Assembly: GCF_902167145.1 (NCBI RefSeq)
Contig: NC_050098.1
Span: 19,364,501-19,428,500 of the forward strand
DNA from: Zea mays
Lineage: Eukaryota; Streptophyta; Magnoliopsida; Poales; Poaceae
Direction: 5' to 3'
Length of the DNA stretch: 64,000 nucleotides
Every line of letters begins with the position of its first letter. Within the stretch, counting starts at the first letter, position 1. The notes under the pieces are model-generated. The model did not search any database and was not told the origin of the DNA. It saw only the letters and a program-made list of their open reading frames with translations. A program made the position numbers and the translations under genes. This document shows positions 15,187 to 64,000 of this stretch, piece after piece.

Positions 15187-16437
15187 TGAAAGGGAAATGT
15201 GCCCTTGGGCCATTTCTAAGTATTTTGGTGATTGAGTGTCAACACAAGTGCTTAAATGTGAATCAATGCCCATGGATGAACAAAGTGCAAATCTAGAGCA
15301 AAGGTATGTTTCTAAGTCTTAGTACATTGGTTTTGTGTACTAATATACTTGTCTAAGTATTAGAAACAGGAAGAAGAAGAAGAGAAGAAAGTTGGCTGTG
15401 TACAGCCAACAGGCTGTTTCGGTCTGGTGCACCGGACTGTCCGGTGGTGCACCGGACAGTGTCCGGTGCGCCAGGCTGCCTCGGCCGAAGAGGCCGCTCT
15501 CGGGAATTTGCTGACGGCGTACGGCTAAAATTCACCGGACTGTCCGGTGTGCACCGGACTGTCCGGTGAGCCAACGGTCGGCCGGGTCAACGGTCGGCCG
15601 CGCGATCAGCGCGGGACACGTGGCCGAGCCAACGGTCGGAAGGGGGCACCGGACTGTCCGGTGTGCACCGGACATGTCCGGTGCGCCAACGGCTCCCGCA
15701 TCTGCTACGGTCGGCTTCGCCAATTAAGGAAAGGAATCGGGCACCGGACACTGTCCGGTGTGCACCGGACTGTCCGGTGCGCCCGACGACAGAAGGCAAA
15801 GATGGCCTTCCAGATTTGTTCTCAACGGCTCCTAGCTGCCTTGGGGCTATAAAAGGGACCCCTAGGCGCATGGAGGAGTACACTAAGCAACCTTTGAGCA
15901 TTCTTGATCATCCACACTCAGTCTTTGCGCATCCGTTTGTGATTCTAAGTGATTCGAGCTCCGTTCTTGTGAGAAACTGTGAGATAGTCTTTGAGCTCGA
16001 TTCTTGGCCGTGTGTGTGCGCATTTCGCTGTGGATTTGTGTGTGTTGCTTCCCTCCCTTACTCCGTGCTTCTTTGTGAATCTTAAGTGTAAGGGCGAGAG
16101 ACTCCAATTTGTGGAGATTCCTCGCGAGTGGGATAAAGATAAGCAAGGCAAAAACACCATGGTATTCAAGTGGGTCTTTGGACCGCTTGAGAGGGGTTGA
16201 TTGCAACCCTCGTCCGTTGGGACGCCACAACGTGGAGTAGGCAAGTTTTGTACTTGGCCGAACCACGGGATAAATCACCGTGTCTTCCCTGTGTTAAATT
16301 CTTTGTGATTGTCATATTGTGCAAGATCTCCTCTTTAGCCACTTGGCAATTATTGTGCTAACCCTTAACAAGTTTTTGTGGCTATAAGTTAAGTTTTTAC
16401 AGGATCACCTATTCACCCCCCCCTCTAGGTGCTCTCA
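15187..16437 (+). repeat. 5' LTR of element D
   Basis: 1251 bp. U3 has clusters of CACCGGACTGTCCGGTG palindromes (about 15426-15470, 15534-15572, 15648-15685 and 15741-15782), then a TATA box (CTATAAAAGG, about 15847). The end is CCCCTCTAGGTGCTCTCA. Confidence 0.92.
15847..15856 (+). promoter_or_regulatory. TATA box of LTR D
   Basis: CTATAAAAGG sits in a GGGGCTATAAAAGGGACC context, repeated in the 3' LTR at about 23529 and, inverted, in LTR F at about 44630. Confidence 0.6.
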
Positions 16438-16439
16438 AT

Positions 16440-16452
16440 TGGTATCGGAGCC
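16440..16452 (+). other. Primer-binding site of element D
   Basis: TGGTATCGGAGCC, two bases after the 5' LTR, is of initiator-Met tRNA type. Confidence 0.65.
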
Positions 16453-16486
16453 GTTCTCTTCACAAAGGGACTTACCGCCCGAAGAG

Positions 16487-18859
16487 ATGGATCCTAAGGG
16501 GAAGGGAATCGTGATCAACGACAAAGAAAAGGAATCCTTCGTCAACGAGCCGAAGGACGACAAGCCTACCGACTCCGGCTTGGGGCATAGACGGAAGGAA
16601 GGGAAGAAGAAGAAGACAAGGCGCATCAAGGAGATCATCTACTACGACGATAGTGATGAGTCTACTTCTTCCCAAAAGGATGATGACAACGACTACAAAA
16701 AGACGGTCAATTCGAACTTTTCATTTGATTATTCTCGTATTCAACATAGTTCGAATTCGCATTTGCTTTCCATTCCTCTTGGCAAACCTCCACACTTCGA
16801 TGGGGAGGACTACGGATTTTGGAGTCACAAAATGCGTAGTCACTTATTCTCTCTCCATCCAAGCGTATGGGAGATTGTGGAGAATGGAATGAAATTTGAT
16901 AGCTCGGATAGCCCTATGCTTATAAATGAACAAATTCATAGAAATGCACAAGCTACTACTGTTCTCTTAGCATCTTTGTGCAGGGAAGAGTACAATAAGG
17001 TGAGCGGCTTGGACAATGCCAAGCAGATATGGGACACCCTCAAGATCTCTCACGAAGGGAACGACATCACCATGCTCACCAAGATGGAGTTGGTGGAGGG
17101 CGAGCTTGGACGATTCGCCATGATAAGGGGAGAGGAGCCAACTCAAACTTACAACTGGCTCAAGACCCTTATCAACAAAATAAGGAGCTACGGAAGCACG
17201 CGTTGGACGGATCACGACGTCGTCCGCCTAATGCTCAGGTCATTTACCGTTTTTGATCCTCATCTCGTGAACAATATTCGTGAGAATCCCAGGTACACGA
17301 AGATGATGCCCGAGGAGGTACTCGGAAAATTCGTAAGCGGGCGGATGATGATCAAGGAGGCAAGATACGTCGACGACGCCTTGAATGGTCCGATCAACGA
17401 GCCTCAACCCATTGCTCTCAAGGCAACAAGGAGCAAGGAGGCGCTACCCAGCAAGGTGGCACAAATTGAGGCTGCCGGTCTTAATGATGAAGAGATGGCC
17501 CTCATCATTAAAAGATTCAAGACGGCGCTAAAAGGTCGAAAGGGACAGCCAAGCAAGGCCAAGACCAAGGGAAAGCGATCATGCTTCAAATGCGGTAAGC
17601 TTGGTCATTTTATTGCTAACTGTCCCGAAAATGATAGTGACCAGGAGCAAGGGAAAAATGGGAAGAGAGAGAACAAGAAGGTTTACAAGAAGGCCAAAGG
17701 CGAAGCACACCTTGGAAAGGAGTGGGATTCGGATTGCTCTTCGTCCGACTCCAACGACGAAGGACTCGCCGCCACTGCCTTCAACAAATCGGCTCTCTTC
17801 CCCAACGAGCATCACACTTGCCTCATGGCAAGGGAAAAGAAGGTAATCACTCGTAATGCTAATACTTATGATTCTTCTAGTGATGATGAATCTAGTGAGG
17901 ATGAAATTGATTACTCTAGTTTATTCAAGGGATTGGATAGAACTAAGATAGCTAAGATTAATGAGTTGATTGATGCCTTAAATGAAAAGGATAGAATCTT
18001 AGAGAAACAAGAAGACCTTTTATATGAAGAACATGATAAATTTGTTAGTGCACAAAATTCACTTGCTCTAGAAGTTAAAAGAAATGGAATACTTTCTTGT
18101 GAACTTTCTACTTGTAATGAAACCATTTCTTCTTTAAAAGGTGAAATTAATGTTTTAACTGCTAAACTAGAAGTAGCAAGTAACTCTTGTGTTGAAAATA
18201 TTACAATTTGCACTAGGTGTAAGGATTTTGATGTTAATGCTTGTAGTGAACACTTAGTTTCAATTTCAAAACTAAATGATGAAGTGGCTAGTCTTAATGC
18301 TCAACTTAAGACTAGCAAGAGTGAAGTTGATAAAATAAAATTTGCAAGGGATGCCTACACGGTGGGTAGACACCCCTCAATTAAGGATGGTCTTGGCTTC
18401 AAGAGAGAGGCCAAGAACTTAACAAGCCATAAGGCTCCCATCTTCGTCAAGGAGAAAGGGAAGGCCCCTATGGCTAGTTGTGCTAAAAGGAACCATGCTT
18501 TCTTATACCATGATAGGAGACATGCTTATAATGATTTTGATTCACATGTTTATGATTCTCATGCCATGTTTGCTTCTAGTTCTTCCTATAAGCATGATAG
18601 AGATATGTGTAGGAGAAATGTTGTGCATATGCCTAGGAGAAATTTTGCTCATGTTCCTAGAAAAGTTGTGAACAAACCTTCTACCATTTATTATGCTTGC
18701 AATGCTCCCTTTGCTATTTGTAGAAAGGGTAAGAAGGTAATTGCTAGGAAATTAGGGGCAAGATGCAAGGGAGATAAAACTTGCATTTGGGTCCCTAAGG
18801 AAATTTGCACTAACCTTGTAGGACCCAACAAGAGTTGGGTACCTAAGTCCCAAGCCTAA
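16487..18859 (+). CDS. D Gag (unspliced form), 790 residues
   Basis: The start is the first ATG after the primer-binding site (MDPKGKGIVINDK). The frame stays open to TAA at 18857-18859. Order: charged N-terminus, gag core with GKPPHFDGEDYGFW near residue 105 and EGELGRFAMIRGEEP near 205, zinc knuckle CX2CX4HX4C at residues 366-379, acidic linker, then a long coiled-coil C-terminal part. From 17843 (after residue 452) the coding text lies inside the proposed retained intron 17843-18872. Full Gag would therefore come from unspliced RNA and the first 452 residues from both forms. Gag is the structural protein of the virus-like particle and binds element RNA. Confidence 0.88.
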   Translation: MDPKGKGIVINDKEKESFVNEPKDDKPTDSGLGHRRKEGKKKKTRRIKEIIYYDDSDESTSSQKDDDNDYKKTVNSNFSFDYSRIQHSSNSHLLSIPLGKPPHFDGEDYGFWSHKMRSHLFSLHPSVWEIVENGMKFDSSDSPMLINEQIHRNAQATTVLLASLCREEYNKVSGLDNAKQIWDTLKISHEGNDITMLTKMELVEGELGRFAMIRGEEPTQTYNWLKTLINKIRSYGSTRWTDHDVVRLMLRSFTVFDPHLVNNIRENPRYTKMMPEEVLGKFVSGRMMIKEARYVDDALNGPINEPQPIALKATRSKEALPSKVAQIEAAGLNDEEMALIIKRFKTALKGRKGQPSKAKTKGKRSCFKCGKLGHFIANCPENDSDQEQGKNGKRENKKVYKKAKGEAHLGKEWDSDCSSSDSNDEGLAATAFNKSALFPNEHHTCLMAREKKVITRNANTYDSSSDDESSEDEIDYSSLFKGLDRTKIAKINELIDALNEKDRILEKQEDLLYEEHDKFVSAQNSLALEVKRNGILSCELSTCNETISSLKGEINVLTAKLEVASNSCVENITICTRCKDFDVNACSEHLVSISKLNDEVASLNAQLKTSKSEVDKIKFARDAYTVGRHPSIKDGLGFKREAKNLTSHKAPIFVKEKGKAPMASCAKRNHAFLYHDRRHAYNDFDSHVYDSHAMFASSSSYKHDRDMCRRNVVHMPRRNFAHVPRKVVNKPSTIYYACNAPFAICRKGKKVIARKLGARCKGDKTCIWVPKEICTNLVGPNKSWVPKSQA

Positions 18860-18872
18860 ATTTGCCTTGCAG
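17843..18872 (+). other. Proposed retained intron joining D gag to pol
   Basis: The donor is GAAGAAG|GTAATC and the acceptor CCTTGCAG|GTTTATG, spaced 1030 nt. The donor falls exactly between two gag codons and the acceptor exactly between two pol codons, so removal turns the +1 frame offset into a continuous Gag-Pol frame. Element F has this same junction already made in DNA (63669/63668). CTAAAT overlapping the gag stop resembles a branch point, but it lies close to the acceptor. The splice is inferred, not demonstrated. Confidence 0.6.
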
Positions 18873-21800
18873 GTTTATGCATCCGGGGGATCAAGCTGGA
18901 TTATCGACAGCGGATGCACAAACCATATGACGGGGGAGAAGAAGATGTTCACTTCCTACGTCAAGAATAAGGATTCCCAGGATTCAATTATATTCGGTGA
19001 TGGGAATCAAGGCAAGGTAAAAGGGTTAGGTAAAATTGCAATTTCTAATGAGCATTCTATCTCTAATGTATTTTTAGTAGAGAGTCTTGGATATAATTTG
19101 CTATCTGTTAGTCAATTATGTCATATGGGATATAACTGTCTATTTACAAATGTAGATGTGTCTGTCTTTAGAAGAAGTGATGGTTCACTAGCTTTTAAGG
19201 GTGTATTAGACGACAAACTTTATTTAGTTGATTTTGCAAAAGAAGAGGCCGGTCTAGATGCATGCTTAATAGCTAAGACTAGCATGGGCTGGCTGTGGCA
19301 TCGCCGATTAGCACATGTGGGGATGAAGAACCTTCACAAGCTTCTAAAGGGAGAACACGTGATAGGTTTGACAAACGTGCATTTCGAAAAAGATAGACCT
19401 TGTGCAGCTTGTCAAGCAGGTAAACAAGTGGGAGGAGCGCATCACGGCAAGAACGTGATGACCACTTCAAGACCCCTGGAGCTGCTGCATATGGACCTCT
19501 TCGGACCCGTCGCCTATCTGAGCATAGGAGGGAGTAAGTATGGTTTAGTTATTGTTGATGACTTTTCCCGCTTCACTTGGGTATTCTTTTTGCAGGATAA
19601 GTCTGAAACCCAAGGGACCCTCAAGCGCTTCCTCAGGAGAGCTCAAAATGAGTTTGAGCTCAAAGTGAAAAAGATAAGGAGCGACAACGGGTCCGAGTTC
19701 AAGAACCTTCAAGTGGAGGAGTTCCTTGAGGAGGAAGGGATCAAGCACGAGTTCTCCGCTCCCTACACACCACAGCAAAATGGTGTGGTAGAGAGGAAGA
19801 ACAGGACGCTAATCGATATGGCGAGGACAATGCTTGGAGAATTCAAGACCCCCGAGTGTTTCTGGTCGGAAGCCGTGAACACGGCTTGCCACGCCATCAA
19901 CAGGGTCTACCTTCATCGCCTCCTCAAGAAGACTTCGTATGAGCTACTAACCGGTAACAAACCCAATGTATCTTACTTTCGTGTATTTGGGAGCAAGTGC
20001 TACATTCTAGTGAAGAAGGGTAGAAATTCTAAGTTTGCTCCCAAAGCAGTAGAAGGGTTTTTGTTAGGTTATGACTCAAATACAAAGGCGTATAGAGTCT
20101 TCAACAAATCATCGGGTTTGGTTGAAGTCTCTAGCGACGTTGTATTTGATGAGACTAATGGCTCTCCAAGAGAGCAAGTTGTTGATTGTGATGATGTAGA
20201 TGAAGAAGATGTTCCGACGCCCGCCATACGAACCATGGCAATTGGAGAAGTACGGCCACAGGAACAAGATGAATGAGATCAACCTTCTTCCTCAACTATG
20301 GTGCACCCCCCAACCGAAGGTGACGAACAGGTACCTCAAGTGGAGGCGCTTGATCAAGGGGGAGCACAAGATGATCAAGTGATGGAGGAAGAAGCGCAAC
20401 CGGCACCTCCAACCCAAGTTCGAGCGATAATTCAAAGGGATCATCCCGTCGATCAAATTCTGGGTGACATTAGTAAGGGAGTAACTACTCGATCTCGATT
20501 AGTTAATTTTTGTGAGCATTACTCCTTTGTCTCTTCTATTGAGCCTTTCAGGGTAGAGGAGGCCTTGCTAGATCCGGACTGGGTGTTGGCCATGCAGGAG
20601 GAGCTCAACAACTTCAAGCGCAATGAAGTTTGGACACTGGTGCCTCATCCGAAGCAAAATGTTGTGGGAACCAAGTGGGTGTTCCGCAACAAACAGGACG
20701 AGCACGGGGTGGTGACGAGGAACAAGGCTCGACTTGTGGCAAAAGGTTATGCCCAAGTCGCAGGTTTGGACTTTGAGGAGACTTTCGCTCCTGTGGCTAG
20801 GCTAGAGTCCATTCGTATCTTGCTAGCATATGCCGCTCACCATTCTTTCAGGTTGTACCAAATGGATGTGAAGAGCGCTTTCCTCAACGGGCCAATCAAG
20901 GAGGAGGTATATGTGGAGCAACCCCCTGGCTTCGAGGATGAACGGTACCCCGATCACGTGTGTAAGCTCTCTAAGGCGCTCTATGGACTTAAGCAAGCCC
21001 CAAGAGCATGGTATGAATGCCTTAGAGACTTTTTAATTGCTAATGCTTTCAAGGTTGGGAAAGCCGATCCAACTCTTTTCACTAAGACATGTGACGGTGA
21101 TTTGTTTGTGTGCCAAATTTATGTCGATGACATAATATTTGGTTCTACTAACCAAAAGTCTTGTGAAGAGTTTAGCAGGGTGATGACGCAGAAATTCGAG
21201 ATGTCGATGATGGGCGAGTTGAACTACTTCCTTGGGTTCCAAGTGAAGCAACTCAAGGACGGCACCTTCATCTCCCAAACGAAGTACACGCAAGATCTGC
21301 TAAAGCGGTTTGGGATGAAGGACGCCAAGCCCGCAAAGACTCCGATGGGGACCGACGGACACACCGACCTCATCAAAGGAGGTAAGTCCGTTGATCAAAA
21401 AGCATACCGGTCAATGATAGGTTCTTTGCTTTACTTATGTGCTAGTAGACCGGATATTATGCTTAGTGTATGCATGTGTGCTAGATTTCAATCCGATCCT
21501 AAGGAGTGTCACTTAGTGGCGGTGAAGCGAATTCTTAGATATTTGGTTGCTACGCCTTGCTTCGGGCTCTGGTATCCAAAGGGGTCTACCTTTGACTTAG
21601 TTGGATACTCAGACTCCGATTATGCTGGATGTAAGGTCGATAGGAAGAGTACATCGGGGACGTGCCAATTCTTAGGAAGGTCCCTGGTGTCATGGAACTC
21701 TAAGAAACAAACCTCTGTTGCCCTATCCACCGCTGAGGCCGAGTACGTTGCCGCAGGTCAGTGTTGCGCACAACTACTTTGGATGAGGCAAACCCTCCGG

Positions 21801-22073
21801 GACTTTGGCTACAATCTGAGCAAAGTCCCACTCCTATGTGATAATGAGAGTGCTATCCGCATGGCGGAGAATCCTGTTGAGCACAGCCGCACAAAGCACA
21901 TAGACATCCGGCATCACTTTTTGAGAGACCACCAGCAAAAGGGAGATATTGAAGTGTTTCATGTTAGCACCGAGAACCAGCTAGCCGATATCTTCACTAA
22001 GCCTCTAGATGAGAAGACCTTTTGCAAGTTGCGTAGTGAGCTAAATGTCTTAGATTCGCGGAACCTGGATTGA
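18873..22073 (+). CDS. D Pol: protease, integrase, RT, RNase H (one in-frame stop)
   Basis: In copia order: aspartic protease (IDSGCTNHM, residue about 12), GAG-pre-integrase zinc finger ([14 protein letters not shown]...CAACQAGKQ, about 135-190), and integrase core with D-D-E (LHMDLFGP about 207, RSDNGSEF about 270, NGVVERKNR about 305). RT ([12 protein letters not shown] about 600, [10 protein letters not shown] about 750) and RNase H ([23 protein letters not shown], about 905-1000) follow. There is no ATG at the start: pol is +1 to gag and needs splicing or recoding to be reached. A single TGA at 20274-20276, in the low-complexity linker between integrase and RT, interrupts an otherwise open frame of about 1066 codons. 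The downstream part (ATG 20298) is in the same frame. Confidence 0.88.
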
Positions 22074-22846
22074 ATTATAGCATACATGTATTTATGCTTT
22101 TGATCATGTTCCTTTTTGCATTTTATTGCTTATTATGGTGCTCAAGTTGTAAAAACACTCCCTGGACCTCACAAGTCCGTTGCAAAGTGATGCACATGTT
22201 TAGGGGGAGATGTGTTACAACTTGACCCTTTGAGACTAACCATGTGCTTGAGTTTGATGATTTAGTCTCGAAGGAGGATTGAAAGGGAAAAGGTGGACTT
22301 GGACCATGAAAGACTTCCACTGCACTCCGATGAGAGGGTAACTTATTCCAAGTTCATCTCATGAAATCTTATTGCCATTTGCTCTTAATTGAAGACCTTG
22401 GTGAGGCAATGGGGTTAAAAAAGGCCAAGATTGATCCCGTTTTGGTGCTTGATGCCAAAGGGGGAGAAAATAAAGGCCAAAGTGATAAATGGATCAGCTA
22501 CCACTTGAGAGATTTTGAAAATAGTAGAATAGAGTTTTTGTTGTGTCAAAAGCTTTTATTGTCTCTTATTGTCTCTATTGTCAAAAGTTGGTTTCTTGTG
22601 GGGAGAAGTGTTGATTATGGGAAATAGGGGGAGTTTTTGAAATCTTCTTTATGCCTCAACATGTGTGTTTGACATAGAAATAGAGATTTGAGTTTAATTT
22701 GCAAAAACAAACCAAGTGGTGGCAAAGGATGATCCATATATGCCAAAATTGAATCAAAACCAATTTGAGTTTTTATTTGAAGTAATTTTGCACTTGTTCT
22801 ATCTGCTTTATGTTGTGTTGGCATAAATCACCAAAAAGGGGGAGAT
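22074..22846 (+). other. D 3' untranslated region with repeated polypurine tracts
   Basis: No coding frame is supported. G-rich polypurine motifs recur at about 22202 (AGGGGGAGATG), 22459 (AAAGGGGGAGAAAA), 22625 (TAGGGGGAG) and 22833-22845 (AAAAAGGGGGAGA). The last primes the 3' LTR. Multiplied polypurine tracts are a known Sirevirus trait. Confidence 0.7.
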
Positions 22847-24122
22847 TGAAAGGAAAATGTGCCCTTGGGCCATTTCTAAGTATTTTGGTGATTGAGTGTC
22901 AACACAAGTCCTTAAATGTGAATCAATGCCCATGGATGAACAAAGTGCAAATCTAGAGCAAAGGTATGTTTCTAAGTCTTAGTACATTGGTTTTGTGTAC
23001 TAATATACTTGTCTAAGTATTAGAAACAGGAAGAAGAAGAAGAGAAGAAAGTTGGCTGTGTACAGCCAACAGGCTGTTTCGGTCTGGGGCACCGGACTGT
23101 CCGGTGGTGCACCGGACAGTGTCCGGTGGTGCACCGGACAGTGTCCGGTGCGCCAGGCTGCCTCGGCCGAAGAGGCCGCTCTCGGGAATTTGCTGACGGC
23201 GTACGGCTAAAATTCACCGGACTGTCCGGTGTGCACCGGACTGTCCGGTGAGCCAACGGTCGGTCGGGTCAACGGTCGGCCGCGCGATCAGCGCGGGACA
23301 CGTGGCCGAGCCAACGGTCGGAAGGGGGCACCGGACTGTCCGGTGTGCACCGGACATGTCCGGTGCGCCAACGGCTCCCGCATCTGCTACGGTCGGCTTC
23401 GCCAATTAAGGAAAGGAATCGGGCACCGGACACTGTCCGGTGTGCACCGGACTGTCCGGTGCGCCCGACGACAGAAGGCAAAGATGGCCTTCCAGATTTG
23501 TTCTCAACGGCTCCTAGCTGCCTTGGGGCTATAAAAGGGACCCCTAGGCGCATGGAGGAGTACACTAAGCAACCTTTGAGCATTCTTGATCATCCACACT
23601 CAGTCTTTGCGCATCCGTTTGTGATTCTAAGTGATTCGAGCTCCGTTCTTGTGAGAAACTGTGAGATAGTCTTTGAGCTCGATTCTTGGCCGTGTGTGTG
23701 CGCATTTCGCTGTGGATTTGTGTGTGTTGCTTCCCTCCCTTACTCCGTGCTTCTTTGTGAATCTTAAGTGTAAGGGCGAGAGACTCCAATTTGTGGAGAT
23801 TCCTCGCGAGTGGGATAAAGAAAAGCAAGGCAAAAACACCGTGGTATTCAAGTGGGTCTTTGGACCGCTTGAGAGGGGTTGATTGCAACCCTCGTCCGTT
23901 GGGACGCCACAACGTGGAGTAGGCAAGTTTTGTACTTGGCCGAACCACGGGATAAATCACCGTGTCTTCCCTGTGTTAAATTCTTTGTGATTGTCATATT
24001 GTGCAAGATCTCCTCTTTAGCCACTTGGCAATTATTGTGCTAACCCTTAACAAGTTTTTGTGGCTATAAGTTAAGTTTTTACAGGATCACCTATTCACCC
24101 CCCCCCCCTCTAGGTGCTCTCA
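22847..24122 (+). repeat. 3' LTR of element D
   Basis: 1276 bp. It is longer than the 5' copy mainly through one extra palindrome unit near 23113-23150 and a longer C-run near 24099-24109. It ends TAGGTGCTCTCA and is followed by the CTCAC target copy. Confidence 0.92.
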
Positions 24123-25027: not shown

Positions 25028-26741
25028 GAGCAAGGCGCCACCTCAACACCCAAGGTGCAACCCGTCGCCTTCAAGGCAACGGAGGAGAAGAAAGAAGACT
25101 CTACACCTAGTAGGGTCCCCATCGACGCCTCCAAGCTCGACAATGAGGAGATGGCGCTCATCATCAAGAGCTTTCGCCAAATCCTCAAGCAAAGGAGGGG
25201 GAAAGACTACAAGTCCCGCTCCAAGAAGGTTTGCTACAAATGTGGTAAGCCCGGTCATTTTATCGCTAAATGCCCTTTGTCTAGTGATAGTGAAAGGGAT
25301 AACGACAAGAAGGGAAAGAAGAGAGAAAAGAAGAGGTACTACAAGAAGAAGGGCGGCGATGCCCATGTTTGCAGGGAGTGGGACTCCGACGAGAGCTCCA
25401 CCAACTCCTCCACCGACGAGGACGCCGCCAACATCGCCGTCACCAAAGGACTCCTCTTTCCCAACGTCGGCCACAAGTGCCTCATGGCAAAGGACGACAA
25501 GAAGAAGAAGGTAAAATCTAAATCCTCCACTAAGTATGCAACATCTAGTGATGAGGCTAGCTCTAGTGATGATGAGTATGATTTATTAACGCTTTTTGCC
25601 AACCTAAACATGCAACAAAAGGAGAAATTAAATGAGATAATTAGTGCTATTCATGAGAAGGATGAACTCTTGGACTCCCAAGAGGACTTCCTAATTAAAG
25701 AAAACAAAAAGCATGTTAAGGTTAAAAATGCTTATGCTCTAGAGGTAGAAAATTGTGAAAAATTATCTAGTGAGCTAAGCACTTGCCATGATGTTATTTC
25801 CAACCTTAGAAATGAAAATGCCAAATTAATTGGTAAGGTTGAGAAATCAAAAGTTTGTGATGATTCAATTGACAATCTTAGAAATGATAATGCTAGTTCA
25901 ATTGCTAAGATTGAAAAATTGAATGCCTCTCTTGCTAACCTTAGAAATGAGAATGAAAAATTAATTGCTAAGGCTAAGGAATTAGATGTTTGCAATATTT
26001 CTATTTCTAATCTTAGAGATGAGAATGACATTTTACATGCTAAGATTGTTGAACTAAATTCTTGCAAACCCTCTACATCTACCGTTGAGCATGTTACTAT
26101 TTGCACTAGATGTAGAGATGTTAAAATTGATGCTATTCATGATCACACTGATATGATTAAACAACAAAATGATCATATAGCAAAATTAGATGCTAAAATT
26201 GCCGAGCATGAGTTAGAAAATGAAAAAATTTAAATTTGCTCGTAGCATGCTTTATAGTGGGAGACGCCCTGGCATTAAGGATGGTATTGGTTTCCAACAG
26301 GGAGGCAATGTCAAACTCAATGCCCCTCCTAAAAAATTATATAACTTTGTTAAGGGCAAGGCTCCCATGCCTCAGGATAACGAGGGTTACATTTTGTACC
26401 CTGCCGGTTATCCCGAGCACAAAATTAGGAGAATTCATTCTAGGAAGTCTCACTCTGGCTCTCATCATGCTTTTATTTATAAGAGTGAGGCATCTAGTTC
26501 TAGGCAATCCACTCATGCTAAATTGCCTAAAAAGAAATCTCTTATTGCATCAAATGAGCCTAACATTTCATTTAAGACTTTTGATGCATCCTATGTGCTC
26601 ACTAACAAATCAGGCAAAATAGTTGCCAAATATGTTGGGGGCAAACACAAGGGATCAAAGACTTGTGTTTGGATACCCAAGGTGCTTGTTTCTAATGTGA
26701 AAGGACCCAAGACCGTTTGGGTACCTAAGAACAAGGCCTAA
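25027..26741 (+). pseudogene. C gag, N-terminally deleted and frameshifted
   Basis: It starts inside gag (EQGATSTPK), corresponding to 13900 of element A. It has a zinc knuckle (CYKCGKPGHFIAKC, about 25231), an acidic linker and a coiled-coil region similar to but distinct from A's. An extra A in the run at 26222-26228 shifts the frame, and the correct gag end is then read from 26220 to TAA at 26739-26741. This shift lies inside the proposed intron 25511-26754, so it would not affect a spliced Gag-Pol. The apparent upstream reading frame through the LTR (from 24953) is accidental. Confidence 0.82.
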
Positions 26742-26754
26742 AATTGTTTTGTAG
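25511..26754 (+). other. Proposed retained intron joining C gag to pol
   Basis: The donor is AAGAAGAAG|GTAAAATC and the acceptor TTTTGTAG|GTTTATG, spaced 1244 nt and phase 0 at both ends. The last three intron bases are a TAG in the pol frame, so pol cannot be extended upstream by simple translation. The D acceptor reads CAG at this place, which fits a YAG splice site rather than a conserved codon. Confidence 0.55.
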
Positions 26755-44046: not shown

Positions 44047-44832
44047 TGAGAGCACCTAGAGGGGGGGTGAATAGGTGATCCTGTAAAAACTTAAGACTTA
44101 AAGCCACAAAACTTGATTAAGTGTTAGCACAATGAAATCAAGTGTCTAAGGACCGTGCTCTTATGAAACACAATAGTCACAGTGAGAACAAGCACAAGAG
44201 ACACGATGGTTTATCCCGTGGTTCGGCCAAGTACAACACTTGCCTACTCCACGTTGTGGCGTCCCAATGGACGAGAGTTGCACTCAACCCCTTTCAAGTG
44301 ATCCAAAGATCCACTTGAATACCATGGTGTTTTTCTTTCTTTCACTATATCTCGTTTGCGAGGAATCTCCACAACTCGGAGCCTCTCACCCTTACAAATG
44401 ATGATCATAAAGAAACACAGATGTAAGGGAGGGAAAAGCAACACACACAAATCCCAGCAATACGTACACACACAAGCCAAGACTTGAGCTCAAATGAAAC
44501 ACAACAAGTTCACCACTAGAACGGAGCTCAAATCACTAAGAATGTCAATCGAGTGTGCGAAGATGGAGTGCGGGAGTCTTAGAATGTTCAGAGTATGCTT
44601 GGTGTACTCCTCCATGCGCCTAGGGGTCCCTTTTATAGCCCCAAGATAGCTAGGAGCCATTGAGAGCAATCCAGGAAGGCAATCCTTGCCTTTTGTCGGG
44701 TGGCGCACCGGACAGTCCGGTGTGCCACCGGACAGGCACTGTTCGGTGTCCGGTGCAGATTGCTTTCCTAAATTGGCGCAGCCGACCGTTGAAGATTTGG
44801 AGCCGTTGGCGCACCGAACAGTCTGGTGCCCC
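44047..44832 (-). repeat. 3' LTR of element F, left part in window coordinates
   Basis: This is the inverse of the R/U5 and part of U3 of an Opie-like LTR, with the TATA box on the minus strand at about 44630-44638 and palindromes around 44706-44835. It ends at the GCCCC target (44828-44832) of element G. Confidence 0.83.
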
Positions 44833-45461
44833 TGTCGGTGTTTTGGGTCCGACCGCACACCCGGGGTTGCCCCTCAAGGTGTTTTTAGGAGTAGGACGGT
44901 GTCGACGACTGTAGCAAAATGGTTCGTGCCAGTTGCACGAGGGTCAGTGGACAATGTTTACAGGTTCGGGCCGCTTAGAGATGCGTAACACCCTACGTCC
45001 TGGTGAGTATGCTGGATGAGTAAGGTTACAAGAGGGCTCTCTGAGTTGAGAATACAGAGAGTCGAAGTGGGTGGCTAAGTAATAGGGTCGATCGTTCTGA
45101 AGGGGTGCCCCCTAGGCCTTATATACTCGACCGTGGGGCAATACACGGGGATATGATAACAATGTGTAGCTAAAAGATAGTGATCTGTTTGAGTTTATCT
45201 CCTTGTAGTTCTGCCGACTTATCCTCGCATGGCTCCGTTGCATGGGGGCTCCAGCGCTGGAAAGTCGGATCTCTGTTGTGGTCGCTCGCTCGACGTTGTG
45301 GGCCATCTGGGTTCGCACCAATCCGGCCCCATGTCGATCTGCTTTGCTGGTTGTTCCTCCCCAGGCCCACGAAAGAATGACCTTACGATTTATTGGGCCC
45401 TTGGGCCTTTCGTGAGGTCTTTTACTCTTTTAGTGGACCTGGGGGATATCTATCCCCCACA
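44833..45461 (-). repeat. 3' LTR of element G
   Basis: 629 bp, reading TGTCGGTGTTTTGGG...ATCCCCCACA on +. For the minus-strand element this is the downstream copy. A purine tract on the minus strand (AGATCGGGGGCT, 45462-45473) abuts it. Confidence 0.92.
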
Positions 45462-51420: not shown

Positions 51421-51630
51421 AGAGACATTTTGCGTGCTTTGAGCGTGCGGTTAGCATGGTCAGACATTTGTTAGAAGACGTCATCTCAGTATTTGAACGA
51501 TGTTGTTATTCTCATGTTGTTTCAGAATTAGTTCATGAATTTGCAGTAGTAAAATGATGTGCGACGGTTTTGAGACTTGTTCGCGGGATATAGAAGTCAT
51601 CCCTATATGAATATTTGTAAGCACGTCAGA

Positions 51631-52506
51631 TCGCCTTAAGTCGCTGCTGACTTAAGTCGGTTGCTTCTGTTAATAGGGCGTAGTGGTCACCCTGAATTGC
51701 GTAGGCGTGAGCATGTTACGCCGCCTTAAGTCGTTGCCGACTTAAGCCGATTGCTCCGTTAGCAGGGCATAGTGGTCACCCCGAGTTAAGTAAGCGCGAG
51801 CATATTGCACCGCCTTAAGTCGTTGCTGACTTAAGCCGATTGCTCCGTTAGCAGGGCATAGTGGTCACCCCGAGTTAAGTAAGCGCGAGCATGTTGCACC
51901 GCCTTAAGTCGTTGTCGACTTAAGCCGATTGCTCCGTTAGCAGGGCATAGTGGTCACCCCAAGTTAAGTAAGCACGAGCATGTTGCACCGCCTTAAATCG
52001 TTGCCGACTTAAGCCGATTGCTCCGTTAGCAGGGCATAGTGGTCACCCCAAGTTAAGTAAGCGCGAGCATGTTGCACCGCCTTAAGTCGTTGCCGACTTA
52101 AGCCGATTGCTCCGTTAGCAGGGCATAGTGGTCACCCCAAGTTAAGTAAGCGCGAGCATGTTGCACCGCGTTAAATCGTTGCCGACTTAAGCCGATTGCT
52201 CCGTTAGCAGGGCATAGTGGTCACCCCAAGTTAAGTAAGCGCGAGCATGTTGCACCACCTTAAGTCGTTGCCGACTTAAGCCGATTGCTCCGTTAGCAGG
52301 GCATAGTGGTCACCCCAAGTTAAGTAAGCGCGAGCATGTTGCACCGCCTTAAATCGTTGCCGACTTAAGCCGATTGCTCCGTTAGCAGGGCATAGTGGTC
52401 ACCCCAAGTTAAGTAAGCGTGAGCATGTTGCACCGCCTTAAGTCGTTGCCGACTTAAGCCGATTGCTCCGTTAGCAGGGCATAGTGGTCACCCCGAGTTA
52501 AGTAAG
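51631..52506. repeat. 89-bp tandem repeat array, ten copies, each with a hairpin
   Basis: TGCTCCGTTAGCAGGGCATA recurs exactly every 89 bp from 51752 to 52464, with one more degenerate copy at 51662. Each unit has a 9-bp inverted repeat, CTTAAGTCG and CGACTTAAG, around a 4-nt loop. The array lies between the end of the antisense gene and the end of G pol and is not coding. Confidence 0.9.
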
Positions 52507-52616
52507 AATGCAAGTCAATCGTGAACAAACTGAGTATCTTTGAAACCCCTTTTTTATTGATGACATATTTCCACTTTACAGAGTACATCGTCGTCCCGAT
52601 AGCTTTTGAAATACAG

Positions 52617-58658: not shown

Positions 58659-58659
58659 C

Positions 58660-59288
58660 TGTCGGTGTTTTGGGTCCGACCGCACACCCGGGGTTGCCCC
58701 TCAAGGTGTTTTTAGGAGTAGGACGGTGTCGACGACTGTAGCAAAATGGTTCGTGCCAGTTGCACGAGGGTCAGTGGACAATGTTTACAGGTTCGGGCCG
58801 CTTAGAGATGCGTAACACCCTACGTCCTGGTGAGTATGCTGGATGAGTAAGGTTACAAGAGGGCTCTCTGAGTTGAGAATACAGAGAGTCGAAGTGGGTG
58901 GCTAAGTAATAGGGTCGATCGTTCTGAAGGGGTGCCCCCTAGGCCTTATATACTCGACCGTGGGGCAATACACGGGGATATGATAACAATGTGTAGCTAA
59001 AAGATAGTGATCTGTTTGAGTTTATCTCCTTGTAGTTCTGCCGACTTATCCTCGCATGGCTCCGTTGCATGGGGGCTCCAGCGCTGGAAAGTCGGATCTC
59101 TGTTGTGGTCGCTCGCTCGACGTTGTGGGCCATCCGGGTTCGCACCAATCCGGCCCCATGTCGATCTGCTTTGCTGGTTGTTCCTCCCCAGGCCCACGAA
59201 AGAATGACCTTACGATTTATTGGGCCCTTGGGCCTTTCGTGAGGTCTTTTACTCTTTTAGTGGACCCGGGGGATATCTATCCCCCACA
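58660..59288 (-). repeat. 5' LTR of element G
   Basis: 629 bp, nearly identical to 44833-45461. A minus-strand TATA box (GTATATAAGG) lies at about 58944-58953. The GCCCC target copy at 59289-59293 follows on +. Confidence 0.92.
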
Positions 59289-59293
59289 GCCCC

Positions 59294-59698
59294 CATCAGA
59301 CCGTTGGCTCGGCCACGCGTCACGCGCGGATTGCGCGGCCGACCGTTGGCTCACCGGACAGTCCAGTGCACCACCGGACAGTCCGGTGAATTTTAGCCGT
59401 ATGTCGCCGACGAATTCCCGAGAGCGGCCAGTTGACCAGACTCCAGCCTAGCGCGCCGGAGACTGCGCAGAGTCTTGGCTGCTCCAGCCAAGTCTTTTTC
59501 CTTTTGTAATTTCTCTGATTCTAGCATTAGACAAATATGTTTGTACACAAAAACCAATGTACTAAGTCTAGAATCATACCTTTGTATTGATTTGCACTTC
59601 ATCCACCATTTGGCACTTATAAATACTTAGGACAATTGTGTTGGACACTTTATCACCAAAATCCTTTAGAAATGGCCCAAGGGCACATTTACCTTTCA
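59294..59698 (-). repeat. 3' LTR of element F, right part in window coordinates
   Basis: This completes LTR F after element G and ends ...CACATTTACCTTTCA at 59698, the inverse of the Opie-like LTR start. Palindromes lie near 59351-59391. Confidence 0.83.
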
Positions 59699-60497
59699 AT
59701 CTCCCCCTTTTTGGTGATTTATGCCAACACAACAAAAAGCAACTAAAAGAAGTGCAACATCGATGCAATTTAGAACAAGAATTGTTTTTGATTCAAATTT
59801 GGCATATTTGGATCATTCTTTGCCACCACTTGGTTTGTTTTTGCAAATCAAACTCAATTTCCTATATCTAAGTCAAACACACTTGTTGAGGCATAAAGAG
59901 AGGTATTCTAAGAGAAATTGATCAAAGATTCAAAAACTCCCCCTTTTTCCCATAATCAAACATTCTCCCCACAAGAGACCAACTTTTGACAAAAAGAGAC
60001 ACTTAGAGTATTTTGACAAATCAAAAGTTCTAACTCTACTATTTTCAAAATTCTCAAGTGGTAGCTGATCCATTTTGCTTGCTTTGGCCTTAATTTCTCC
60101 CCGTTTGGCATCAAGCACCAAAACAAGATCATTTGTGGCCCTTGAACCTCATTGCCTCACCAAAATTGTCAAATAAGAGCAAAAAGGCAATAAGAGCATG
60201 GAGATGAACTTGGAGTAAGTTACCCTCTCATCGGAGTGCAGTGGAAGTCTTTCATGGTCCAAGTCCATCTTTCCCTTTCAATCCACTTATGAGACTAAAA
60301 CAAGTAAACTCAAGCACACGGTTAGTCTCAAAGTGTCAAGTTGTAGCATGCCTCCCCCTAAATGAGTGCATCACTTGCAAATGGACTTATGAGGTCTGGG
60401 GATCACTTGCAAATGTGTACAACTTGAGCACCATATATAAACAAAAAGATGCATAAAGGAACATGATCAAAGGCATAAAACGCATGTATGCTATAGA
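59699..60497 (-). other. F 3' untranslated region with repeated polypurine tracts
   Basis: On the minus strand, GGGGGAG-type tracts occur at about 59701-59714 (next to the LTR), 59936-59950, 60097 and 60352. No coding frame is supported. The layout matches 22074-22846 of element D. Confidence 0.68.
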
Positions 60498-63400
60498 TCA
60501 ATCCAAGTTACGTGAATCTAAGACATTTAGCTCACTACGCAACCTGCAAAAGGTTGACTCATCTAGAGGCTTGGTAAAGATATCGGCTAGCTAGTTCTCG
60601 GTATCTCCCTTTTGCTGGTGGTCTCTCAAAAAGTGATGCTGGATGTCTATGTGCTTTATGCGGCTGTGTTCAACAGGATTATCCGCCATGCGGATTGCAC
60701 TCTCATTGTCACATAGGAGTGGGACTTTGCTCAGATTGTAGCCAAAGTCCCTGAGGGTTTGCCTCATACAATGTAGTTGAGCGCAACACTGTCCTGCGGC
60801 AACATACTCGACCTCAGCAGTGGATAGGGCAACGAAAGTTTGTTTCTTGGAACTCCAGGACACCAGGGACCTTCCTAAGAATTGGCACGTCCCTGATGTA
60901 CTCTTCCTATCAACCTTGCATCCAGCATAATCGGAGTCTGAATATCCAATTAAGTCAAAGGTAGACCCCTTTGGATACCAGATCCCGAAGCAAGGCGTAG
61001 CAACTAAATATCTAAGTATTCGCTTAACGGCCACAAGGTGAAACTCCCTTGGGTCGGATTGAAATCTAGCACACATGCATACGCTTAGCATAATATCCGG
61101 TCTACTAGCACATAAGTAAAGCAAAGAACCTATCATAGACTGGTATGCCTTTTGATCAACGGACTTACCTCCTTTGTTGAGGTCGACATGTCCGTCGGTT
61201 CCCATTGGAGTATTTGTGGGCTTGGCGTCCTTCATCCCGAACCGTCTGATCAAGTCTTGCGTGTACTTCGCTTGGGAGATGAAGGTGCCGTCCTTGAGTT
61301 GCTTCACTTGGAAACCCAAGGAAGTAGTTCAACTCACCCATCATTGACATTTCAAATTTTTGAGTCGTCACACTGCTAAACTCTTCACAAGACTTTTGGT
61401 TAGTAGAACCAAATATTATGTCATCGACATAAATTTGGCACACAAATAAGTCACCATCACAAGTCTTAGTGAATAAAGTTGGATCGGCTTTCCCAACCTT
61501 GAAAGCATTTGTAATTAGAAAGTCTCTAAGGCATTCATACCATGCTCTTGGGGCTTGCTTAAGTCCATAGAGCGCCTTAGAGAGCTTACACACGTGGTCA
61601 GGGTACCGTTCATCCTCAAAGCCAGGGGGTTGCTCTACGTACACCTCCTCCTTGATTGGCCCGTTGAGGAAAGCGCTCTTCACATCCATTTGGAACAACC
61701 TGAAAGAATGGTGAGCGGCATAGGCTAACAAAATACGAATAGATTCTAGCCTAGCCACAGGAGCAAAAGTCTCCTCAAAGTCCAAACCTGCGACTTGGGC
61801 ATAACCTTTTGCCACAAGTCTCGCCTTGTTCCTTGTCACCACCTCGTGCTCGTCCTATTTGTTGCGGAACATCCACTTGGTTCCCACGACGTTTTGCTTG
61901 GGACGTGGCACCAGTGTCCAAACTTCATTTCGCTTGAAGTTATTAAGCTCTTCCTGCATGGCCAACACCAGTCCGGATCTAGCAAGGCTTCTTCTACCCT
62001 GAAAGGCTCAATAGAAGAGACAAAAGAGTAATGCTCACAAAAATTAACTAATCTAGAGCGAGTAGTTACTCCCTTGCTTATATCACCCAATATCTGGTCG
62101 ACGGGATGATTCCTTTGAATCGTTGCTCGGACTTGAGTTGGAGGGGCATGTGGTGCTTCTTCCTCCATAACATGAACATCTTATGCTCCCCCTTGATCAC
62201 ACGCCTCTTCTTGATGAACCTGTTCATCATCTTGAGTTGGGGGGGCACCATTGTTGAGGAAGAAGGTTGATCTTGCTCCTTTTGTTCCTGTGGTCGCACA
62301 TCTCCAATCGCCATGGTGCGTATTGCGGCTGTTGGAACTTCTTCATCTACATCATCAAGATCAACTTGCTCTCTTGGAGAGCCATTAGTCTCATCAAATA
62401 CAACATCGCTAGAGACTTCAACCAAACCCGATGATTTGTTGAAGACTCTATACGCCTTTGTATTCGAGTCATAACCTAACAAAAACCCTTCTACAGCTTT
62501 GGGAGCAAATTTAGAATTCCTACCTTTCTTCACTAGAATGTAGCATCTACTCCCAAATACACGAAAATATGAAACATTGGGTTTGTTACCGGTTAGAAGT
62601 TCGTACGATGTCTTCTTGAGTAGGCGATGAAGGTAGACTCGGTTTATGGCGTGGCAAGTCGTGTTCACAGCTTCCGTCCAAAACCGTTCGGGCGTCTTGA
62701 ATTCTCCAAGCATCGTCCTTGCCATGTCTAAAAGTGTCCTGTTCTTCCTCTCTACCACACCATTTTGTTGTGGTGTGTAGGGAGCGGAGAACTCGTGCTT
62801 GATTCCTTCCTCCTCAAGGTACTCTTCCACTTGAAGGTTCTTGAACTCGGACCTGTTGTCGCTCCTTATCTTCTTTACCTTGAGCTCAAATTCATTTTGA
62901 GCTCTCCTTAGGAGCGCTTGAGGGTCCCTTGGGTTTCAGACTTATCCTGCAAAAAGAATACCCAAGTGAAGCGGGAAAATTCATTAACAATAACAAGACC
63001 ATACTTACTTCCCCCTATGCTGAGATAGGCGACGGGTCCGAAGAGGTCCATGTGGAGTAGCTTCAAAGGTCTTGATGTGGTCATCACGTTTTTGCTATGA
63101 TGAGGGCTTCCCACTTGTTTACCTGCTTGACAAGCTACACAAGGTCTATCTTTTTCGAAAGTTACATTTGTTAGACCTAACACATGTTCTCCCTTTAGAA
63201 GTTTGTGAAGGTTCTTCATCCCCACATGTGCTAGACGGCGATGCCACAGCCAGCCCATGCTAGTCTTAGCAATTAAGCATGCATCTAGACCAGACTCCTC
63301 CTTTGCAAAATCAACTAAATAGAGTTTGTCGTCTAGTACACCCTTAAAAGCTAGTGAACCATCACTCCTTCTAAAGACAGACACATCTACATTTGTAAAT

Positions 63401-63668
63401 AAGCAATTATACCCCATATTACATAATTGACTAACGGACAACAAGTTATACCCGAGCGATTCAACCAAAAATACATTAGATATGGAATGCTCGGATGAAA
63501 TAGCTATCTTTCCTAGTCCTTTAACCTTGCTTTGATTCCCGTCACCGAATATGATTGAATCTTGGGAATCTTTGTTCTTGACGTAGGAGGTGAACATCTT
63601 CTTCTCCCCCGTCATGTGGTTTGTGCATCCGCTGTCGATAATCCAGCTTGAGCCCCGGATGCATAAAC
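60498..63668 (-). pseudogene. F pol: protease, integrase, RT, RNase H with multiple lesions
   Basis: It reads from VYASG at 63668. A lost G in a G-run near 63650 shifts the protease (the SGCTNHM block is read from another frame). The zinc finger and integrase first half are open (63615-62908). A base loss near 62912 shifts the frame; integrase continues at 62830 (NGVVERKNR) into the linker. Further shifts lie near 62200 (linker), 61960 (RT start) and 61316 (RT connection). RT has [10 protein letters not shown] (about 61430). RNase H (61319-60591) ends at a TAG, after a small deletion relative to D. The original end is about 60498. The copy is inactive. Confidence 0.85.
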
Positions 63669-64000
63669 CTTCTTCTCCTTTGCCATGAGGCAGGTGTGAC
63701 GCTCGTTGGGGAATAGAGACGATTTGTTGAAGGCCGTGGCGTCGAGTCCTTCGTCGTCGGAGTCAGACGAAGAACAATCCGAGTCCCATTCTTTTCCAAG
63801 GTGTGCCTCGCCCTTAGCCTTCTTGTAAACCTTCTTGTTCTCTCTCTTCCCATTCTTTCCTTGTTCCTGGTCACTATCATTATCGGGACAGTTAGCAATA
63901 AAGTGACCAATCTTACCACACTTGAAGCAGGAGCGCTTTCCCTTCGTCTTGCTCTTGTTGGGATGCTCCTTGCGACCTTTGAGCGTCGTCTTGAAGCGCT
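63669..64000 (-). pseudogene. F gag, C-terminal part of the spliced form (truncated by window)
   Basis: On the minus strand it reads a zinc knuckle (CFKCGKIGHFIANC, about 63930-63889), a basic linker and an acidic Ser/Asp-rich region. It ends in ...HTCLMAKEKK at 63669. The next codon is the first pol codon (VYASG). The coiled-coil part present in A, C and D is absent. The junction corresponds exactly to the donor and acceptor proposed in D. Confidence 0.83.

Follow-up and report, generated by a model that had tools for sequence, protein, structure and literature searches.

Many maize Sirevirus copies lack exactly the gag-pol interval, as if made from spliced RNA, which suggests a splicing switch between coat protein and enzymes

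The window, which is the whole 64,000-nucleotide stretch of maize DNA analyzed here, contains two Opie-type Sireviruses, elements D and F, and a Ji-type element, C (Table 1). Sireviruses are described as making up ~21% of the maize genome (PMC3599292). The homologues of D and F are named Opie3 or Opie4 gag of Zea and Opie3 pol, and the D translation has the order characteristic of the Opie/Ji type, with a CCHC motif and a putative coiled-coil tail in its large gag, followed by integrase ahead of reverse transcriptase. A scan of IMG/VR viral contigs found no relatives of D pol, and 55 pattern matches (L001 to L055) were taken as chance. The window also contains a tandem array (positions 51577 to 52588, repeat family D1) with an 89-bp unit that is 93% alike in the middle of the array.

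Table 1. Coordinates of elements D, C, and F and of the features at their gag-pol borders
Feature	Position	Strand	Remarks
Whole element D with two LTRs	15187..24122	+	LTRs about 15187-16437 and 22846-24122; 5-bp target duplication CTCAC
D gag, putative upstream exon part, from ATG of MDPKGK to AAG codon ahead of donor	16487..17842	+	ORF 16439-18859
D candidate retained intron (Gag tail, gag stop codon, and acceptor)	17843..18872	+	1,030 nt, GT...AG, read directly
D hairpin, 27 nt (11-bp stem, one bulge, 4-nt loop)	18819..18845	+	Minimum-energy fold; 27 nt upstream of acceptor
D gag stop TAA, 10 nt, and acceptor CAG	18857..18872	+	Read directly
D pol, putative downstream exon part	18873..22073	+	Two ORF pieces, 18867-20276 and 20298-22073
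Ji-type element C, homologous interval GTAAAATC...TTTTGTAG	25511..26754	+	1,244 nt; tail frameshift in this copy gives 2 modulo 3
Ji C gag stop TAA, 10 nt, and TAG (pol frame) as candidate acceptor	26742..26754	+	Read from sequence and ORFs
F 3' LTR remnant	59289..59698	-	5' LTR beyond window, window-equivalent 65072-66338
F in window: gag end, joint, pol, and 3' part	59475..64000	-	Runs past window end; blastn against D, 59475-63670 and 63667-63995
F gag-pol joint	63668..63669	-	Last gag base 63669, first pol base 63668; genome place G000:C3:19428157-19428177

In D, the gag codon AAG (17840 to 17842) is followed by GTAATC, and the interval that starts there ends in CCTTGCAG, after which pol begins at 18873 with GTT TAT GCA TCC. 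This layout, read directly from the sequence, is the one given in the preliminary description. The interval length of 1,030 nt is 1 modulo 3 and both borders are in phase 0, so that removal of the interval cancels the +1 offset between gag and pol, as had also been claimed for this GT...AG piece, and opens a gag-pol frame. The homologous interval in C is bordered by AAG/GTAAAATC at 25510/25511 and by TTTTGTAG/GTTTATGCATCC at 26754/26755. C has a frameshift in its gag tail near 26233 (26220 to 26240), which leaves its interval at 2 modulo 3. Following the gag TAA there are 10 nt and then TAG/GTT in Ji, and 10 nt and then CAG/GTT in Opie. As read from these letters, the Ji TAG and the Opie CAG can be regarded as one and the same candidate 3' splice site.

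The interval was compared across 50 donor-bearing copies (30 plus 20 from two donor samples), which were selected by an intact donor, so that donor losses fall outside the sample. The acceptor AG is present in 50/50 copies, and the interval length is 1 modulo 3 in 48/50 despite lengths that range from 1,006 to 1,090 nt (the exceptions are L089 and L110). For the 23 clean-frame copies (from 28 with a length of 1 modulo 3, D included), dN/dS is 0.31 in the tail, 0.091 in the preceding gag (last 400 codons), and 0.075 in pol. Judged by these comparisons, the interval is protein-coding and is no mere spacer. Among 185 tail-bearing proteins that contain the LFPN..LMA anchor, 180 have a valine codon (GTN) at the donor position, while the residue that follows it varies (S in 83, C in 35, N in 18, I in 16, H in 15, R in 15, and each of three others in one). 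Among the five exceptions, P0070 and P0097 have one lysine fewer and then valine. Gags from rice, Paspalum, and Lolium have lysine-valine at the same place, with the exception of Lolium P0183, in a comparison at the protein level made with an expression that favors valine after lysine.

The base composition of D changes from 56% GC in the 100 nt upstream of the interval to 36% inside it and 48% in the 100 nt downstream; the values for Ji are 58% upstream, 35.5% inside, and 48% downstream. The authors of the BARE work used a contrast of this kind, a U-rich intron with GC-rich sequence on either side, as evidence for a plant intron (PMC3735527). Over 500 nt, pol has 39.8% GC in D and 40.4% in Ji, and in D it comes close to the AT content of the interval. 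Scored against a crude consensus, the acceptor shares the top rank among the 193 AG sites of D and among the 171 of Ji. By the same crude measure the donor scores 7/9, a value that is equaled or beaten by 9 of 107 GT sites in D and by 3 of 95 in Ji, itself included; the donor thus appears to be only among the better GT sites, which is a point against splicing. In both D and Ji, the interval starts with GT and ends with AG, its donor and acceptor are plausible, and it is itself coding, as in a retained intron; it is very probably an exitron-like spliceosomal retained intron.

Element F, which lies on the minus strand, lacks this interval. Its gag sequence, ...GGAGAAGAAG (AAG at 63671 to 63669), runs directly onto GTTTATGCATCC (from 63668), which confirms the exact joint reported within 63640 to 63700 and places it at 63669/63668. 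Shortly past the joint, one base is missing from F (GGGGCTC versus GGGGGATC in D), and its frame is now broken just downstream. The LTR pair of F is 85.8% identical (alignment of 466), and the nearest relatives of F are other interval-less copies, L073 and L064. Based on this LTR divergence and on its closeness to joint copies, F comes from an old interval-less lineage, and we dropped the idea that it is a fresh direct copy of a spliced transcript. The original proposal that F descends from spliced RNA is therefore retained in that the joint is exact, recurrent, and splice-like, and amended in that F need not be a direct copy. The 3' LTR of F is cut at 59289, and a repeat matching 44832 to 45131 starts at 58659, as if another element had inserted there (58659 to 59289).

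We searched the genome from which the window comes (2.18 Gb) for the joint. A 21-nt Opie-type joint pattern, GARAAGAAGGTTTATGCATCC, has 103 matches, compared with 0 for the reversed-pattern control, which puts the F joint beyond chance. The intact-donor pattern, GARAAGAAGGTAATCACTCGT, has 1,034 matches (control, 0). With a gap pattern that consists of the gag anchor, any 0 to 30 nt, and TATGCATCC (31 spacings), 71/71 matches have the exact spacing, 31 nt in all; gap patterns of this kind detect joints near the exact one, and endpoints more than about 30 nt away are invisible to them. The codon ahead of the joint in these 71 matches is AAG in 53, AAA in 17, and AAT in 1. Three joint copies that were taken whole are colinear with D apart from the interval and are complete insertions, with LTR pairs that are 94.6, 99.7, and 97.8% alike and with 5-bp target duplications AAACT, TTCTT, and GACAT. 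In 9 of 28 joint loci, the joined frame stays open all the way from the joint through the downstream piece that was fetched (504 or 837 codons).

The same joint is found in Ji. A second, looser anchor that also takes Ji has 54 matches, with lengths of 31 (19 matches), 40 (27), 37 (6), 36 (1), and 39 nt (1). The 24 of these 54 for which letters were shown all read AAG/GTTTATGCATCC; 15 have a Ji length (36, 37, or 40) and 9 the Opie length, and the differences in Ji length come from a run of lysine codons ahead of the joint. A strict Ji joint pattern matches 6 places, of which 5 are Ji by their 200-bp flanks (78 to 90.5% identity to C on the left and 87.5 to 94.5% on the right) and 1 is Opie; this pattern undercounts Ji, as is evident from the at least 15 Ji-length joints found with the looser anchor. 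The Ji donor pattern has 895 genome matches, and by the patterns used the exact joint is much rarer in Ji than the donor. At the protein level, 29 of 110 proteins examined (from 120 among the matches listed, out of 1,718 matches) span the joint and 7 of these are Ji-like; all except P0215 have the source label jgi, and some may be maize DNA in metagenomes.

Exact removal of the interval is what is expected of reverse-transcribed spliced RNA, and it is what the 103 joint matches, the 71/71 spacing, and the Ji joints display. An alternative, raised as a caveat in the preliminary description, is that the interval was lost by deletion between two AGGT repeats, through microhomology repair or template switching in reverse transcription, and that the joint copies are amplified derivatives of such a deletion. 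AGGT is indeed common to both ends of the interval in D and in Ji. However, 648 repeat pairs of at least 4 bp, 59 of them at least 6 bp, are available within 200 bp of the two ends, yet the spacing is exact in all 71 matches of the gap pattern. In addition, no other large deletion of the interval was found in the 50 sampled donor-bearing copies (a sample that requires an intact donor), and the same joint occurs in Ji, whose interval is different. The 17 joint copies that read AAA/GTT would lack the AGGT repeat if this were the source state, although later mutation is possible; having AAA in place of AAG ahead of GTT shortens the microhomology. The finding of many different endpoints would have pointed to random deletion, and in the part of this comparison that was run the result is the reverse, with the joint also recurring on several branches, as described below. 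Deletion after insertion was set aside as well, since the exact joint recurs.

Unrooted trees were made of the gag side (1,200 bp, 59 rows, of which 28 lack and 31 have the interval) and of the pol side (450 bp, 59 rows), and in them interval-bearing and interval-less copies are interspersed. The gag-side tree requires at least 6 changes, 4 of them forced by well-supported branches, and the pol-side tree requires 10, 2 of them forced. A 57-row tree, made after removal of F, which is a short row, and of two long branches, L058 and L060, requires 7 changes, 5 of them forced. On these 57 rows, placing all interval-less copies in a single clade is rejected (p-AU 4.95e-08, with a bootstrap that had yet to settle). 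The intermixing and the rejection of one clade indicate that loss of the interval recurred, and they speak against a single deletion event. L081 is the most clear-cut individual case: its best match is an interval-bearing copy in 6/6 windows up to the joint and on both sides of it (98.7 to 100%), while its best interval-less match reaches 88 to 95% in the 600 bp upstream of the joint and 99 and 97% in the two windows downstream.

Part of the joint count is nevertheless inheritance. Joint copies were compared with one another and with the 31 interval-bearing rows, which were drawn with one donor sequence from a recent subfamily. Over the 300 nt upstream of the joint, the closest relative is another joint copy for 46 of 48, and over the preceding 280 nt for 43 of 47, with one tie. 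Amplification of deletion derivatives would also give such a pattern. The same tally made on the pol side is more evenly divided between the two kinds. In L057 and L063, and in L071, the gag and pol sides have different nearest relatives or unequal identity, which may be due to recombination between co-packaged RNAs. Taken together, these comparisons suggest that the joint has several origins and that some joint lineages multiplied, and we consider it very improbable that microhomology deletion accounts for the joint. Of the microhomology caveat, the shared AGGT stands; the exact spacing, the recurrence in Ji, and the rejection of a single event go against it.

The reverse order of events must also be weighed, in which the joint is the older state, with a single gag-pol frame like that of most Ty1/copia elements, and the interval came in or spread later through recombination of co-packaged RNAs. 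Joint copies do lie on several deep branches of the gag tree, which is unrooted, the sampled interval copies are more alike among themselves, and some copies have gag and pol sides with different nearest relatives; recombination between lineages may move joints. Against this order, the position of the tail and its borders are common to Opie and Ji, and the tail-bearing part has 803 homologues. In a wider comparison over 110 gag residues, which included tail-bearing proteins from the database and the 37 of 48 interval-less copies with a readable frame, 14 copies score best against a tail-bearing relative, 18 against another interval-less copy, and 5 tie; the margins are often a few bits. That L081 is closest to copies with the interval, upstream as well as downstream of its joint, is likewise contrary to an older joint, and we regard this order of events as extremely improbable.

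The joint is exact, recurrent, present in two families, and frame-restoring, and the interval is a conserved coding sequence with conserved splice-like borders. These observations (71/71 exact joints, recurrence in Ji and on several branches, and a conserved coding interval) support the claim of the preliminary description that the Gag tail is a retained intron. We consider it very likely, on the basis of sequence comparison, that the Opie/Ji gag tail is a retained, protein-coding spliceosomal intron, such that unspliced RNA would produce Gag and spliced RNA Gag-Pol. Unspliced RNA would be translated into Gag with its long tail, with translation ending 13 nt upstream of the acceptor. In a fraction of transcripts, removal of the GT...AG piece would join AAG to GTT in phase 0 and produce one Gag-Pol frame without the tail, and the efficiency of splicing would set the Gag:Gag-Pol ratio. 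Spliced RNA would sometimes be packaged and reverse transcribed, leaving genomic copies with the exact joint, some of which would then have multiplied. A conceptual precedent, in which mis-packaged spliced RNA founds a lineage, appears in the background section of PMC1142308.

The gag/pol border of Sireviruses has been interpreted in another way. The motif of Gao et al. (2003) is described as a +1 offset, a UAG 10 nt past the gag terminator, and a 27-nt hairpin (PMC5009743, PMC2829016); bypass or internal entry/initiation has been proposed for pol (PMC2829016, PMC5009743), and translation of the offset pol is counted among the unresolved puzzles (PMC5009743). From the description quoted in PMC5009743, we infer that the D hairpin is the published motif, which thus lies at the same place as the candidate 3' splice-site region and was read there as a signal for bypass or internal initiation. 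If Pol were made by such recoding at a conserved hairpin, the joint would be unrelated to expression. In favor of this explanation, D is predicted to fold a 27-nt hairpin ahead of its gag stop; the lowest-energy fold of the same stretch in Ji C differs from the 27-nt hairpin. Neither the exactness of the joint nor its recurrence follows from recoding. Under splicing, the UAG 10 nt past the gag stop would supply the AG of a 3' splice site, and the overlapping subset that has no UAG would have the same site with CAG. We find it highly improbable that Pol is expressed by recoding with the joint unrelated to expression. If splicing is indeed the switch, it would answer how the offset Sirevirus pol is translated.

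A broader reading is that splicing of the Gag-tail intron is the general route to Gag-Pol in Sireviruses with a +1 offset, with the conserved UAG and hairpin of the 2003 model lying in its 3' splice site, and that spliced copies which multiplied make up a tail-less lineage alongside, one that may depend on unspliced relatives for tail-bearing Gag. We judge the chances of this extension to be slightly better than even. Five metagenome proteins (P0124, P0125, P0244, P0252, and P0257) have the gag tail in frame into pol, with ..LQ/VYASGG or similar. In these five the acceptor is seemingly read as a codon, and in some relatives gag and pol may form one uninterrupted frame that needs no splicing.

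Foamy viruses express Pol from spliced RNA and Gag from unspliced RNA. The Opie/Ji arrangement proposed here resembles theirs in that spliced RNA is used for Pol, and it differs in that foamy virus Pol is made apart from Gag while spliced Opie/Ji RNA would encode a fused Gag-Pol. In Ogre elements, partial splicing of an intron between gag-pro and rt-rh-int is described as the source of the whole polyprotein, so that, as in Opie/Ji, two coding blocks are joined into one (PMC6317226). Ogre elements, however, belong to Ty3/gypsy, and their intron is the region between two ORFs that were on average 274 bp apart in a survey (PMC6317226), whereas Opie and Ji are Ty1/copia elements with a ~1-kb interval that encodes a conserved Gag tail and lies between gag and pol, before the protease part. 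By sequence, the Opie/Ji interval does not belong among Ogre-type gag/pol introns, although it would work alike.

BARE1 is closer in family: it is a grass Ty1/copia element from which a GT-AG intron, U-richer than its flanks, is spliced out close to the border of gag and pol (PMC3735527). As the preliminary description had stated, its layout is different: removal of the 104-nt BARE1 intron creates a stop and hence a Gag-only RNA, which is the opposite of the assignment proposed for Opie/Ji (PMC3735527). The shGAG RNA of EVADE, an Arabidopsis Ty1/copia element, is likewise a case in which alternative splicing sets the Gag:Pol balance, but there splicing removes the protease and makes a short Gag RNA, again the reverse of the proposed layout (PMC12786077). 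In both of these elements splicing truncates the frame to Gag only, in contrast to the removal seen here. Among the matches listed in the open-licence PMC literature (titles and abstract openings), there is no description of splicing between gag and pol in Sireviruses, in agreement with the earlier statement that it was not known for Ji/Opie. What is known, then, is splicing between coding blocks (Ogre) and splicing that sets the Gag level (BARE1 and EVADE), and what appears to be new, relative to the literature searched, is the reversed assignment, in which a retained intron encodes the Gag tail. If this is true, the known Ty1/copia splicing layout is reversed in these elements, and the long Gag tail gets a reason.
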